From: Micavibrio sp.
GTDB lineage: Bacteria; Pseudomonadota; Alphaproteobacteria; Micavibrionales; Micavibrionaceae
Direction of reading: 5' to 3'
NCBI GenBank assembly: GCA_028290825.1
Contig: JAQGJB010000015.1
Location: 31,599 to 95,598 of the forward strand
Length of the DNA: 64,000 nt
A model generated the notes under the pieces. The model was not told the origin of the DNA and made no database searches. It was given only the letters and a program-made list of their open reading frames with translations. Below are positions 6,964 through 64,000 of this stretch, piece by piece (position 1 is the stretch's first letter; every line of letters begins with the position of its first letter). The translations under genes were made by a program, and so were the position numbers.

Positions 6964-7246
6964 GCGATGAAGACCGTTGCTTAGAAAAGGACAAGAATTT
7001 GCCCCTGTTACTAAAATTAAAGGAAAAGCATAAAGAAAATACTAATATATTATGTTAATATTTAGGCGCTATGCCATTGCTTTGGAAGGATTAATCGGAA
7101 AGAAAGGGAGAAGCGATCTTGGTAAAAACAAGCATATCATAGTTTCGGGGCCATTAAAAATAGGCCTTTAGGTTTTTCTATTTCGAATCAGGGGCTTCTC
7201 GGGTAGCCTGAAGGACAGATTTTCCAAGCTCTTATGAGGGACCGAA

Positions 7247-7987
7247 TTGACCGAAAAGCTTTCCCAAGATTCACTGGCCGAAGCCACACGCGACCGTGCA
7301 CAATTTTCAGGCCATGGCAAAGCAAAAGGCGCCGCCGGGTACAGGGAAGTATTTTCCGATCCTGACAGCGAGTTCCTTTCAGCCTCGGGCCAGACGACCG
7401 TGATCAACCCCCGTCCTGACGGTTTCGGTACAATGAAGATTGCGGCAGCCTGGGACAATATTGTCGTTGCGGAAAGCAAAGGCGGGATTCTAGGCAAGCT
7501 TGTCAAAAAGGTGACGCGGCAGGGCGTCGATATTGATCTTGGCTGCCTTTATGAAATGCAGGACGGCACGCGCGGCTGCATACAGGCGTTCGGGGAAATG
7601 ATGGGTGACTTCAACGAAACCCCTTTTATCACCCTGTCCGGGGATGAGCGAACAGGTGACGCGGTGGGGGAAGATGAATTCCTGCGTATCAACGGGTCGC
7701 AATGGGGCCAGATCAAACGCGTTCTGGTCTATGCATATATTTATAAGGGCGCCGCATGCTGGGCCGATATCCGCCCACAAATTCAGGTTTCCATTCCCGG
7801 CGAGCATCCAATGGTGGTGACACCCGCCGTCAGCAAATCGGAACTGGCCGTGTGCGCCATCGCCACGCTCGAGAACCTGCGCGACGGCATGCGCCTGACC
7901 AACCACAGTGAATATTTCCCCGGCCACGACGAAATGGACCGTGCCTTCGGCTTTGGCATTACCTGGGCCGATGGCGAAAAGAAATAG
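7247..7987 (+). CDS. TerA-like tellurium-resistance/stress family protein
   Basis: 246 aa soluble protein resembling the C-terminal domain of TerA, a paralogue of the calcium-binding TerD fold. Motifs seen include DIDLGCLYEMQDG, a central acidic GDERTGD and KRVLVYAYIYKGA. The start is TTG, supported by a GAGGG Shine-Dalgarno sequence six bases upstream. Ter-family proteins are linked to tellurite resistance, phage inhibition and colicin tolerance, with unclear biochemical roles. It is paired with a TerD-like gene and is divergent from the pilus operon. No TerB, TerC or TerF is present here. Confidence 0.82.
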   Translation: MTEKLSQDSLAEATRDRAQFSGHGKAKGAAGYREVFSDPDSEFLSASGQTTVINPRPDGFGTMKIAAAWDNIVVAESKGGILGKLVKKVTRQGVDIDLGCLYEMQDGTRGCIQAFGEMMGDFNETPFITLSGDERTGDAVGEDEFLRINGSQWGQIKRVLVYAYIYKGAACWADIRPQIQVSIPGEHPMVVTPAVSKSELAVCAIATLENLRDGMRLTNHSEYFPGHDEMDRAFGFGITWADGEKK

Positions 7988-8025
7988 ATAACAAACATCA
8001 GACTTAATCTTTGGAACAGCACATC

Positions 8026-8709
8026 ATGGACGACCCGCAACAGCCCCCAGCCGCAAAACCAATCACCGCCGAGGAACTGGCGAAGCTGGATAATCTTCCC
8101 GCGCCTGCGCCGCAGTACATTCCTGAAGAAAACCTCGTTCAGAAAGGCGATTACCAGGATATCCGACGTAAGATTCCGGAACTGAAAGAAATCGTCATCG
8201 GTGCGGGCTGGGACCTTAAAATGTTCGAGGAAAATCCGGTCGATGTCGATCTCAGCTGCTTTTTGCTGAACAAGGACGACCAGACGCGCGAGGATGAGGA
8301 TTTCGTTTTCTACAATAACGACAAAGCCTGCGCCGGGGCCGTGCGTTACATGGGCGACAGCCGGAACGGTGCGGGTGACGGCGATGATGAAAGCATTATT
8401 ATCGACCTGAATTCCCTGCCCTTCGATGTGATGAAAATCACCGTCGTCCTGACGATTTACGATGCGGCAGAGAGAAGCCATGATTTCGGCACGGTGCGGA
8501 ACATGTACCTGCGCATCGTCAATGCCTATGACGACAATGAAATCCTGCGCTACCGCCTGAGCGAGGAAGAATTCGCGGGCAAGACCGGCATCAAGGTCGC
8601 AGAACTGGTCCGTGAGGGACCGAAATGGTTCTTCAATGCCGTGGGCGAGCCTATCCCCGGCGGCCTGGCCAGCATCGCAACGAAATACGGATTAATCATC
8701 CAGATGTAA
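8026..8709 (+). CDS. TerD family protein
   Basis: 227 aa TerD-like protein with a Pro-rich N-terminal extension (about 50 residues) before the TerD fold. Family motifs are clear: VDVDLSCFLLNKD, DFVFYNN, the acidic calcium-site stretch GDGDDESI, and the C-terminal KWFFNAVGEPIPGGL with KYGLII. The ORF track begins at a TTG at 8011 with no ribosome site; the ATG at 8026 has GGAAC eight bases upstream and is preferred. It probably forms an operon with the TerA-like gene (38-nt gap) and ends at a strong shared terminator. Confidence 0.85.
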   Translation: MDDPQQPPAAKPITAEELAKLDNLPAPAPQYIPEENLVQKGDYQDIRRKIPELKEIVIGAGWDLKMFEENPVDVDLSCFLLNKDDQTREDEDFVFYNNDKACAGAVRYMGDSRNGAGDGDDESIIIDLNSLPFDVMKITVVLTIYDAAERSHDFGTVRNMYLRIVNAYDDNEILRYRLSEEEFAGKTGIKVAELVREGPKWFFNAVGEPIPGGLASIATKYGLIIQM

Positions 8710-8723
8710 TCCGGATGGATACC

Positions 8724-8753
8724 GTGGCCGCCGGATCAAGCGGCCACTTTTTT
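8724..8753. terminator. intrinsic terminator between terD-like gene and ppdK
   Basis: Perfect 8-bp stem GTGGCCGC/GCGGCCAC with an 8-nt loop followed by TTTTTT on the plus strand. It sits 15 bp after the TerD-like stop and contains the ppdK stop in its loop, so it mainly ends the plus-strand Ter transcript. Confidence 0.9.
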
Positions 8754-11396
8754 CTTCACCGCCGATTTTTCGCGGATGGCCGCCTGGGCCGCCGCGAGCC
8801 TTGCGATCGGCACGCGGTAGGGTGAACAGGAAACGTAATCAAGCCCCATGCTTTCGCAGAAAGCGATTGAGGCCGGATCGCCGCCGTGTTCGCCGCAGAT
8901 GCCAAGCTTCATGTCCTTGCGCACGGCGCGGCCCTTTTGTCCGGCGATTTGCATCAGCTGGCCCACGCCTTCGGTATCGAGTGTGGCGAACGGGTCGCGG
9001 GCAAAAATTCCCTGACGGATATAATCGGGCATGAACATTCCGGAATCGTCGCGGCTGAGCCCCAGCGTGGTCTGGGTCAGGTCGTTGGTGCCGAAACTGA
9101 AAAACGCGGCACCGCTTTCGGCGATTTTGTCAGCCATCAATGCCGCGCGCGGCAGCTCGATCATAGTGCCGACGCTGTAGATGACATTTTTCCCCTTGGC
9201 CGTTTCGTCGATCAGGTTTTTGAGGATCGTGAATTCGACATCGGTTGCGATCAGCGGGATCATAATTTCAGGTGTGGCCCCCGTTTCCAGCGCCGCATCG
9301 AAAATCGCCCTGGCCTGCATCGCGTAGATTTCCGGGAAGGTAATGCCGAGGCGGCAACCGCGATGGCCAAGCATCGGATTTTGTTCATGCAGTTCACCGA
9401 GACGGCGGCGCACCTGTTCCGAGTCGATCTTCGCCAGATCGGCAAAAGCCTGAATGTCTTCGTCGGATTGCGGCAGGAATTCATGCAACGGCGGATCAAG
9501 CAGGCGGATGGTGACGGGCAGCCCCTTCATGATGGTAAAGAGTTCGGCAAAATCGCTACGCTGGGCCGGGAGGAGTTTATCGAGCGCTTCTTTCCGCGCC
9601 TCCACCGTGCGGGCGAAGATCATTTCGCGCACATGCTGAATCCGGGTGGGTTCGAAAAACATATGTTCGGTGCGGCAGAGGCCGATCCCCTGCGCGCCGA
9701 AACCACGCGCAACTTTGGCATCCAGCGGCGTTTCGGCATTGGCGCGGACTTTCATCCGCGCATGGGCGTCGGCCCAGCCCATGATGGTGGCGAAATCATC
9801 GGAGAGTTGCGGTTTGACGGTTGCCACCTTCCCCAGCATAACCTCCCCCGTGCTGCCATCGATGGTAATCAGATCGCCCTCGCGTATGACATGGTCGCCG
9901 ATGCGCATGACTTTCTGTTCAGAATCGATGTGGATCGACCCGGCCCCGGCGACACAGGCGCGGCCCATGCCGCGCGCGACAACCGCCGCGTGACTGGTCA
10001 TCCCTCCGCGTGTAGTCAGGATACCGGCGGCGGCATGCATGCCGTGAATATCCTCAGGGCTGGTTTCCTTGCGCGAGAGGATGACTTTTGTGCCGTCCTT
10101 TGCACGTTCCTCCGCCTCATCGGCGGTGAAGATGACGATGCCGCTGGCGGCGCCCGGCGATGCGGGCAGGCCCTTGGCCACAATATGTTTGTGCGCACCG
10201 GGGTCGAGGGTCGGGTGCAGTAACTGATCGAGGGCCTGGGGATCGAGGCGAAGTAACGCCTCGTCTTCGCCAATCAGTTTTTCGGCGACCATATCAACGG
10301 CGATTTTCAGGGCGGCGGCAGAGGTGCGTTTCCCGGCACGGGTCTGCAGCATATAAAGTTTGCCGCTTTGCACGGTGAATTCGATGTCCTGCATGTCGCG
10401 GTAGTGTTTTTCGAGTTTCAGGCGGACGTCGCAGAGTTGTTTAAACACATCTGGCATGACCTCCTCCATCGATGGCAGATCGCTGCCTTCCTTGTTGCGG
10501 CCATTCACGGTCAGGGATTGGGGCGTGCGGATGCCGGCCACGACGTCTTCGCCCTGAGCATTGACGAGGTATTCACCGTAGAAATAATTCTCGCCCGTCG
10601 AAGGATCGCGGGTAAAGGCAACGCCTGTTGCACAATCGTCGCCCATATTGCCGAACACCATGGCCTGAACGTTGACGGCCGTGCCCCATTCTTCGGGGAT
10701 ATCATGAATACGGCGATAGGTTATGGCGCGCGGGGTCATCCACGATTTGAAGACCGCGCCGATAGCGCCCCATAATTGTTCCTGGGGGTCCATCGGGAAG
10801 GGTTTTCCCATTTTCTTTTTCACCACAGCCTTATAGGCCGCGACGATGTCGCGCAGATGGACGGCGGAGAGGTCGTTGTCCTGATGGACATCGTTATCCA
10901 GTTTGCTGCGCTCCAGGATATCTTCAAATTCATGATGCGGCACTTCCAGAACGACATCGCCATACATCTGGATGAAACGGCGGTAGGAATCCCAGGCGAA
11001 ACGTTCGTCGCCGGACTGGGCGGCCAGGCCACGCACCGTTTCATCGTTCAGGCCAAGGTTAAGAACGGTATCCATCATGCCCGGCATCGAGGCGCGGGCA
11101 CCGGAACGGACGGAGACGAGCAGCGGGTTCGTGGCATCGCCAAATTTTGCGCCGATAGCCTTTTCGACTTTTGCCAGTCCTTCCGCCACCTGATCTTTCA
11201 GGTCGGCGGGATAGGTATTTTTATTCTGGTAGAACGCCGTGCAGACCTCGGTCGTGACGGTGAAACCCGCCGGGACCGGCAGGCCCAGCGTCGCCATCTC
11301 GGCCAGGTTTGCGCCCTTGCCGCCGAGGAGATTTTTCATGTCGGCGCGTCCATCCGATTTGCCTGCGCCGAAGCTGTATACCCATTGTGCGGCCAT
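8736..11396 (-). CDS. ppdK: pyruvate, phosphate dikinase
   Basis: 886 aa enzyme interconverting pyruvate, ATP and phosphate with PEP, AMP and pyrophosphate. All three family regions are present: the N-terminal nucleotide-binding domain (LGGKGANLAEM, SGARASMPGMMDTVLNLG), the phosphohistidine swivel domain (GGMTSHAAVVARG) and the C-terminal TIM barrel (GTNDLTQTTLGLSRDD, GICGEHGGDP). The ORF track extends upstream to 11507, but the ATG at 11396 has GGGAAAG at good spacing and gives the normal family length, so the extra 37 residues are rejected. It stands alone on the minus strand. Confidence 0.97.
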   Translation of the reverse strand: MAAQWVYSFGAGKSDGRADMKNLLGGKGANLAEMATLGLPVPAGFTVTTEVCTAFYQNKNTYPADLKDQVAEGLAKVEKAIGAKFGDATNPLLVSVRSGARASMPGMMDTVLNLGLNDETVRGLAAQSGDERFAWDSYRRFIQMYGDVVLEVPHHEFEDILERSKLDNDVHQDNDLSAVHLRDIVAAYKAVVKKKMGKPFPMDPQEQLWGAIGAVFKSWMTPRAITYRRIHDIPEEWGTAVNVQAMVFGNMGDDCATGVAFTRDPSTGENYFYGEYLVNAQGEDVVAGIRTPQSLTVNGRNKEGSDLPSMEEVMPDVFKQLCDVRLKLEKHYRDMQDIEFTVQSGKLYMLQTRAGKRTSAAALKIAVDMVAEKLIGEDEALLRLDPQALDQLLHPTLDPGAHKHIVAKGLPASPGAASGIVIFTADEAEERAKDGTKVILSRKETSPEDIHGMHAAAGILTTRGGMTSHAAVVARGMGRACVAGAGSIHIDSEQKVMRIGDHVIREGDLITIDGSTGEVMLGKVATVKPQLSDDFATIMGWADAHARMKVRANAETPLDAKVARGFGAQGIGLCRTEHMFFEPTRIQHVREMIFARTVEARKEALDKLLPAQRSDFAELFTIMKGLPVTIRLLDPPLHEFLPQSDEDIQAFADLAKIDSEQVRRRLGELHEQNPMLGHRGCRLGITFPEIYAMQARAIFDAALETGATPEIMIPLIATDVEFTILKNLIDETAKGKNVIYSVGTMIELPRAALMADKIAESGAAFFSFGTNDLTQTTLGLSRDDSGMFMPDYIRQGIFARDPFATLDTEGVGQLMQIAGQKGRAVRKDMKLGICGEHGGDPASIAFCESMGLDYVSCSPYRVPIARLAAAQAAIREKSAVKKKVAA

Positions 11397-11749
11397 GCTT
11401 TTAACTTTCCCAAATACGGTGTGATGACGCAGAAAGCCTAGCCGATTCTGATGGGCCTGTCTTGCGGAGGCGCGACGGGTGATAGCGGCCTGCGCGCCAG
11501 CGGACAACGAACATTTTCTGCGCGTTGAGATATAAATCGTAAGCCGAGTATGGGATATTATTCCTATATTGTCAAGGTTTATGAGCGTCCACTCAGAGGC
11601 GCATTAATAACGGTATTTATTGCCTGACCTTCGGGAATGCCCTTTTAATATTAGAAAAAAGATGTTTAGATTTAAGCGTATTCATTGACAGGCTTATTTA
11701 GGTTGTGCTTATGTAAACCATAATAAGATAAAACAGGCTGGGAACCTTC
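11397..11749. other. 353-bp intergenic region without a recognised gene
   Basis: Divergent region between ppdK and the gene at 11750. It should hold the ppdK promoter. A sigma70-like promoter for the rightward gene is marked separately. No convincing small ORF, RNA gene or repeat was recognised in the remaining sequence. Confidence 0.6.
11685..11715 (+). promoter_or_regulatory. putative sigma70-like promoter for the 11750 gene
   Basis: A perfect TTGACA at 11685 is followed 17-19 bp later by TTATGT/TATGTA. The start codon is at 11750, leaving a leader of about 30 nt. Only the -35 box is strong. Confidence 0.4.
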
Positions 11750-12370
11750 ATGAAAAAATACATCGGCAAAGGTGTTGCTAACGACTTTTATAATGCGTTG
11801 CAGGACGCCAGGTCTTCTTTCTCTGCGGAAGAGATTCAGGAATATGCTCCTGAAACGATTGAAGAAATGTTCCAGGTTCAGCTTAACGTTAATATCCGCG
11901 CCGCCGCCGAAATGCACAGCAATGCCGGAAATCCTAAGACCGCAACAGTGCTTTTGGACTTCGCCAATTATGATTTCCCCGATTACAGGGAAATTTTCAA
12001 CGTGAAGGATTCCGTTCGCCTCGGCCAGGGGATAGCGAAAATAGTAAAAAGGACGCTGAGCGATATCCGGCACCTGCCTGCGCTGGAGAACGAGGAACCT
12101 TTCGATCCCAATCCATGGCCCGATTATAATGAGATGTTCGGTGCGGCGGAAGCCGCACGTCAGGGCAGTGCGGCGGTGGCAAGCCTGCGGAACCTGCTTG
12201 CCGCCGTTGCCAAAATACCTGTGCCGCAGAATGTGACCGGGGATAAGCAGGCCTGGGCGGAATTCACCAATACACTTGGCCTCAAAAAGCTGGCAGACAG
12301 CAAGTCTACAGAGACTTCACCAGCATCAGACAAAGATCGTCGTCAACCGGATGGACCGCAAATGGCCTGA
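11750..12370 (+). CDS. hypothetical protein
   Basis: 206 aa soluble protein with no signal peptide, no membrane segment and no motif I recognise. It is mostly helical in appearance, with acidic patches (AEEIQEYAPETIEEM near residue 27), a middle segment containing FANYDFPDYREIF, and a low-complexity C-terminus rich in Ser, Thr and Asp. GGGAA lies six bases before the ATG. The 3' end overlaps the convergent GNAT gene by 65 bp, so its last ~20 codons share DNA with the end of that enzyme and may be a late extension. Confidence 0.65.
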   Translation: MKKYIGKGVANDFYNALQDARSSFSAEEIQEYAPETIEEMFQVQLNVNIRAAAEMHSNAGNPKTATVLLDFANYDFPDYREIFNVKDSVRLGQGIAKIVKRTLSDIRHLPALENEEPFDPNPWPDYNEMFGAAEAARQGSAAVASLRNLLAAVAKIPVPQNVTGDKQAWAEFTNTLGLKKLADSKSTETSPASDKDRRQPDGPQMA

Positions 12371-62808: not shown

Positions 62809-62981
62809 ATCCAGTTATTTAGGGCAAAGTAGGGAACAGGGCAAATTTCGCGTTGCGGTGTGAATAAATATAAAACACAACCATAAGATGATAATTTTCT
62901 TGCATTTCGCACCGCGCTTTTGTTATGACTATATTCGTTACCGGGTGGGACCGTGTTAACAACTCATTGTGTGGGGACATA

Positions 62982-63647
62982 ATGCATCAATACAGCGTAA
63001 AATCCGCTTCAACGGAGACTCTTCTTTTTTCCGGACAATACAGAACTCTCTCAGAATGCGTCGCCGAGGCGGTGGCGTGCGGTGTCAGTATGCGCAGCGC
63101 CGATTTCCGCAATGCCAATCTGATCAATGCCGAGCTGGACGGCGGCGATTTCAGCGGAGCCCTGTTTTCGGGCGCCAACCTGACCGGGGCCAATCTGAGC
63201 GAGGCCGATCTTCGCCGTACAGATTTCAGCAATGCCGTGCTACACGGCGCAATCCTTTGCGACAGCGATCTAAGCTATTCGGATTTCAGCGGCGCCCTAT
63301 TCGGGGCTACCGAAATTGCGGGCGCGACGCTGCTGAACTGCATTTTTTCCACACTGTCCGCTTTCACTTTACCGTTTGACGAGGCAGATATGATCCGGGA
63401 TTGCATCTTTATCAACTCTTGCGAAACGCCGTGCCCGTTTTCACGCCAGCCTCTGGTGGTAAGGGGGTTGAGCGCACCAGTGATGGTGATGGACCGGCAT
63501 ATCAAAATCGGGCACCAGATTTTCCCCCTGGACAGCATTCCCGCGTGGATCGCCAGCGGCAACCTCGCCCCCAGAAACCTGCGATTACGGCTTGAACAGG
63601 TGGTTCTTTCGCTGATCATGGATGACAAACGTCCTAAAATTGCCTAA
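62982..63647 (+). CDS. pentapeptide-repeat protein
   Basis: 221 aa protein. Residues ~38-120 form A(D/N)LXX-type pentapeptide repeats (SADFRNANLINAELDGGDFSGALFSGANLTGANLSEADLRRTDF), predicted to fold as a right-handed quadrilateral helix; an unrelated ~90-residue C-terminal region follows. GGGGA lies six bases before the ATG at 62982; the ORF-track start at 62925 is less likely. Role unknown; some pentapeptide proteins mimic DNA and protect gyrase. Confidence 0.85.
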   Translation: MHQYSVKSASTETLLFSGQYRTLSECVAEAVACGVSMRSADFRNANLINAELDGGDFSGALFSGANLTGANLSEADLRRTDFSNAVLHGAILCDSDLSYSDFSGALFGATEIAGATLLNCIFSTLSAFTLPFDEADMIRDCIFINSCETPCPFSRQPLVVRGLSAPVMVMDRHIKIGHQIFPLDSIPAWIASGNLAPRNLRLRLEQVVLSLIMDDKRPKIA

Positions 63648-63690: not shown

Positions 63691-63777
63691 GGCCCCATGG
63701 CGGAACTGGTAGACGCAAGCGACTTAAAATCGCTCATCCTAACGGGTATGCCGGTTCGATTCCGGCTGGGGCCACCA
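63691..63777 (+). tRNA. tRNA-Leu (anticodon UAA)
   Basis: 87 nt class II tRNA with CCA encoded. The acceptor stem GGCCCCA/TGGGGCC is perfect, the anticodon stem GCGA-CTTAAAA-TCGC gives anticodon TAA, there is a long variable arm, and the T arm is CCGGTTCGATTCCGG. The 3' end is a likely integration site for the element whose integrase follows. Confidence 0.95.
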
Positions 63778-63823
63778 TCGACAAAAAGATCATTATAAAT
63801 CAATAGCTTAATTCTGGATTAAA

Positions 63824-63851
63824 GTGGTGAGCCCCAAAAGGGAGACACCAC
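63824..63851 (+). promoter_or_regulatory. hairpin enclosing the integrase ribosome-binding site
   Basis: GTGGTG and CACCAC form the outer stem and CCCC/GGG the inner one around an AAAA loop. The GGGAGA Shine-Dalgarno sequence lies within the hairpin, just before the ATG at 63853, so it could limit integrase translation. Confidence 0.5.
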
Positions 63852-63852
63852 C

Positions 63853-64000
63853 ATGAGAAATCCAACCTTTCTGAGCCTTTCCCGTCATAACATTTATTAC
63901 TTTCGCTGGCCTATTCCTGCTGAATTGAGGCGAGGGCGTCCCCCAACAAATCAAGGTATCTCTAGGCACCTGCAATCCTGCCGAGGCCTTGCAGCTCGCT
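63853..64000 (+). pseudogene. tyrosine integrase, N-terminal part, frameshifted, runs off window
   Basis: Not in the ORF track because it reaches the window end. From the ATG at 63853 the product begins MRNPTFLSLSRHNIYYFRWPIPAEL, typical of the N-terminus of phage/island tyrosine recombinases. The expected continuation (QIKVSLGTCNPAEALQLA) is found one frame over, and dropping one G from the GGG at 63934-63936 joins the two parts. The gene is thus broken or the base call is wrong. Its position 75 bp after tRNA-Leu fits an integrative element occupying the tRNA. Confidence 0.75.

Follow-up and report, generated by a model that had tools for sequence, protein, structure and literature searches.

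Probable left edge of a DUF6538-integrase element in tRNA-Leu(UAA) at the end of a Micavibrio contig

The analysed DNA (the window) is a stretch of 64,000 nucleotides, G000:C53:31599-95598, from a Micavibrio sp. genome. As contig C53 is 95,598 bases long, position 64000 of the window is the last base of the contig. The features at this end are the following.

63691 to 63777, + strand: tRNA-Leu(UAA) with encoded CCA, called by ARAGORN; the attachment site (attL) is presumed to be the 3′ part of this gene.
63778 to 63852, + strand: 75-bp spacer between the tRNA and the integrase start, the presumed left end of the element, read from the sequence (64–104 bp in relatives).
63853 to 64000, + strand: 5′ part of a gene for a tyrosine integrase, encoding a DUF6538 (PF20172) N-terminal domain and truncated where the contig stops; identified by Pfam and the nearest relative.
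63931 to 63948, + strand: interval of a reading-frame change, net +1 or −2, from the frames and the spacing in relatives.
64000, no strand: end of the assembled contig G000:C53, where window and contig coordinates coincide.

The tRNA-Leu (anticodon TAA), which the initial annotation had also placed here, is the sole tRNA that ARAGORN called in the window. uvrC adjoins this tRNA gene in the window and in many members of the order, with a different orientation in the congeners G002 and G003. Between uvrC and the tRNA gene, a pentapeptide-repeat protein (PF00805, E 2.6e-19) is encoded at 62925-63647 on the + strand. The GC content is 55.5% across the window and 46.6% 3′ of the tRNA. An ATG at 63853, 75 bp 3′ of the tRNA and on the same strand, opens the integrase frame, and the contig stops 148 bp (~49 codons) into the gene. 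Because the last base of the window is also that of the contig, there is no sequence to the right of the window in this assembly (116 contigs, 86% complete), and the accessory DNA that had been expected there is absent from it.

The first 26 residues from the ATG match positions 4-21 of the DUF6538 profile with 15.7 bits, and the 23 residues that follow match positions 27-44 with 14.9 bits, in another frame only. Either half alone scores below the DUF6538 cut-off of 27. When the fragment is read across the break with an X, the score is 32.6 bits (E 6.3e-8), which bears out the earlier call of an integrase N-terminus 75 bp after the tRNA. The nearest relative is the integrase of G066 (MAG Micavibrio sp. 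SAT33, PALX01000006.1), a member of the same order and another family, in which an intact 544-aa protein (PF20172 and PF00589) is encoded 76 bp after tRNA-Leu(UAA). It is 62% identical to the window fragment over all 50 positions, with no gap.

A PF20172 search of the window's own genome returned no DUF6538 match, as neither half of the split fragment passes the cut-off by itself. The PF00589 search of the same genome returned five genes, all of them other, interior genes, and none joins the fragment. The last 100 bases of C53 have no other copy in the genome, and neither the missing part of the integrase nor any further gene of the element was detected there. The catalytic domain (PF00589) of this integrase would lie past the end of the contig. 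The exact 26-base pattern of the integrase start was absent from the viral and species-genome collections, and the G066 integrase used as a query against viral contigs found no relative. Among the papers searched, none names DUF6538 together with an integrase.

Among the ~30 tRNA-Leu(UAA) loci of the order that were fetched by similarity to the window, a recognisable integrase lies 3′ of the tRNA only in G066 and G002, besides the window and G098. The G098 integrase is of a more distant type. In the congener G002 (L040, G002:C1), the tRNA is followed by a 10.2 kb element that encodes another kind of integrase, of 404 aa, and is bounded by a 57-bp repeat of the 3′ part of the tRNA. Its other products include a HigA-like protein and a 1813-aa protein with abundant GGxGxD-type repeats, which look RTX-like by eye. 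The site is empty in the congener G003, with no integrase and no repeat, and the gene order around it differs from that of the window. Another contig of the G066 MAG (L148, PALX01000019.1, 1-437) carries an internally deleted 129-aa integrase, with chromosomal genes, including uvrC, directly after it.

Across the order, a profile search detected DUF6538 in 59 of 142 genomes. The start was readable for 30 related integrases, and 24 of these begin 64–104 bp past the 3′ end of a tRNA on the same strand, which strongly backs the proposed layout of tRNA, integrase and element. The tRNAs used are tRNA-Leu, -Met, -Arg, -Ser, -Pro, -Ala, -Gly, -Glu and -Tyr. Ten elements were followed downstream, and nine have an exact repeat of 17–28 bp, eight of a tRNA 3′ end and one (G100) of a tRNA-like 3′ end at which no tRNA was called. 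The elements delimited by these repeats span ~4.1–13.6 kb. In G100:C23 (L133/L132), the tRNA-like repeat occurs twice downstream, at ~5.6 and 13.6 kb, and this sequence arrangement suggests two elements in tandem.

Several of these islets carry defence genes. A 10.6 kb islet at tRNA-Met (L124, G011:C2, 695-11291) encodes all parts of a type I restriction-modification system, together with a protein that has a weak match to a TIR effector. The 9.2 kb islet at tRNA-Leu(UAA) in G098 (L138, G098:C5, 628-9854) encodes a CBASS-type cyclase and an E1-E2 protein, and the cargo of the G064 element includes an Abi_alpha protein and an AAA ATPase. A 1680-aa RTX-repeat protein is encoded at 7090-12132 (L122, G007:C1) inside an 11.9 kb islet at tRNA-Met. 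Some other elements of the order have no recognised cargo.

At least eight short DUF6538 open frames of 79–123 aa were found in the order (G057, G035 with two, G102, G119, G046, G134 and G106), each on a contig that continues beyond the frame. At L117, L087 (G035), L097 (G119) and L100 (G134), which lie on long contigs, only the 5′ 50–140 codons of a DUF6538 integrase are recognisable; the remnants at L087 and L097 directly follow a tRNA.

The change of frame in the window fragment falls at ~63931-63948, 52–70 bp from the contig end, in an interval containing a run of three G and a run of five C. The first frame meets no stop before the contig end, so the break is placed by homology only. The initial annotation attributed it to one extra G at 63934-63936. 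The frame change itself stands, but given the wider bracket the extra G is only one of several possible causes. From the FRWP motif to the SL motif, the window has 52 nt (17 1/3 codons), and among 23 relatives this spacing is 18 codons in 14, 16 codons in six and 13 codons in three. A single extra G would imply 17 codons, which occurs in none of the 23, and the loss of two bases from the commonest spacing fits at least as well.

What the frame change means for the gene can be read in two ways. We see an even chance that the integrase is intact and that the change is an error of assembly or sequencing where the contig stops. The break lies close to the end of a contig in an assembly of 116 pieces, and the G and C runs fall within the stretch concerned. 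The open frames of uvrC and of a bactofilin-like gene near the tRNA are full-length, so frame errors are not general in C53, and an error local to the contig end is consistent with this. Against this reading, the motif spacing in the 23 relatives does not tell the correct length for the window gene. The initial annotation took the break to be real and the element to be possibly stranded in the chromosome. That the integrase is truly frameshifted, or survives only as a 5′ remnant, leaving an element or relic unable to excise on its own, has a serious claim that we place a little short of even. The assembled sequence does contain the frame change, it is not unusual in the order for a DUF6538 integrase inside a long contig to be broken or 5′-truncated, and the genome of the best relative also holds the second, internally deleted 129-aa copy. 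Against this, the change lies very near the contig end, and the relatives examined by tblastn have truncated genes or a stop, as opposed to one shift after which the homology goes on in a different frame. With the contig stopping 148 bp into the gene and the break next to that end, a stranded element is not supported.

Because the read-through score exceeds the profile cut-off and the match to the G066 integrase is ungapped at 62%, the integrase start and its split over two frames are, as judged from the sequence, real features of the assembly and more than chance. An unrelated open frame beside the tRNA is extremely improbable, even with only ~49 codons to judge from, given that score, the similarity to an integrase that follows the same tRNA and a 75-bp spacing that resembles the relatives.

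The far boundary was sought as a direct repeat of the tRNA 3′ end, which the initial annotation had proposed as its mark. No second copy was found in the genome with up to three mismatches in 25 bases, nor for 17 bases of it with up to one mismatch, in an assembly that is incomplete and breaks at this point. The only other hit, on C69 (17 bases, two mismatches), lies outside any tRNA in surroundings that look coding, and we regard it as a chance match.

In combination, the results make it probable that a DUF6538-type tyrosine integrase inserted an integrative element into the 3′ end of tRNA-Leu(UAA) and that the locus is the left (attL) edge of this element. The integrase would recombine the attP of the element with the 3′ end of the tRNA gene. 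As the element would bring its own copy of that 3′ end, the tRNA would remain whole, and the displaced copy would mark the far end of the element. For this copy, the mechanism is proposed from what is established for tyrosine integrases and from the repeats in relatives. We infer the size, cargo and far boundary from the same relatives, by which the element would probably be a small islet, roughly 4–14 kb long, with variable accessory cargo. It is also possible that the window holds a bare integrase remnant without an element, as 5′ remnants occur in relatives.

If the locus is such an attL edge, tRNA-Leu(UAA) serves as an integration site for two or more kinds of integrase in a single genus, and for additional kinds in the order. 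More tentatively, and with some doubt on our part, the element could belong to an order-wide set of compact (~4–14 kb) DUF6538-integrase islets at many tRNA genes of Micavibrio-like bacteria. Such islets would shuttle defence systems (type I restriction, CBASS and Abi genes in relatives) and often leave 5′ remnants of the integrase. The locus draws attention to small islets at tRNA genes that carry defence cargo in a group that has been little studied, and the window by itself contributes one truncated example.

The closest counterparts are the DUF6538 elements at tRNA 3′ ends, that of G066 at tRNA-Leu(UAA) and those of G007, G011, G054, G064 and G140 at other tRNAs. They resemble the window in the integrase N-terminus, the orientation and the distance of 64–104 bp. 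These elements of the same order continue past the integrase, whereas the contig of the window ends there and the first 50 codons of its integrase fall in two different frames. The 10.2 kb element of G002 shares the target gene and the layout, but differs in its 404-aa integrase without DUF6538, its 57-bp repeat and its cargo of an RTX-like protein. Genomic islands targeted to tRNA genes are catalogued in Islander (PMC4383910). In contrast to those islands, a displaced tRNA fragment marking the far end was not found for the window element. The resemblance lies in a tyrosine integrase gene at a tRNA gene that is left whole. An integrative element anchored at a tRNA is ordinary biology, and it fits the known tRNA-targeted genomic islands.
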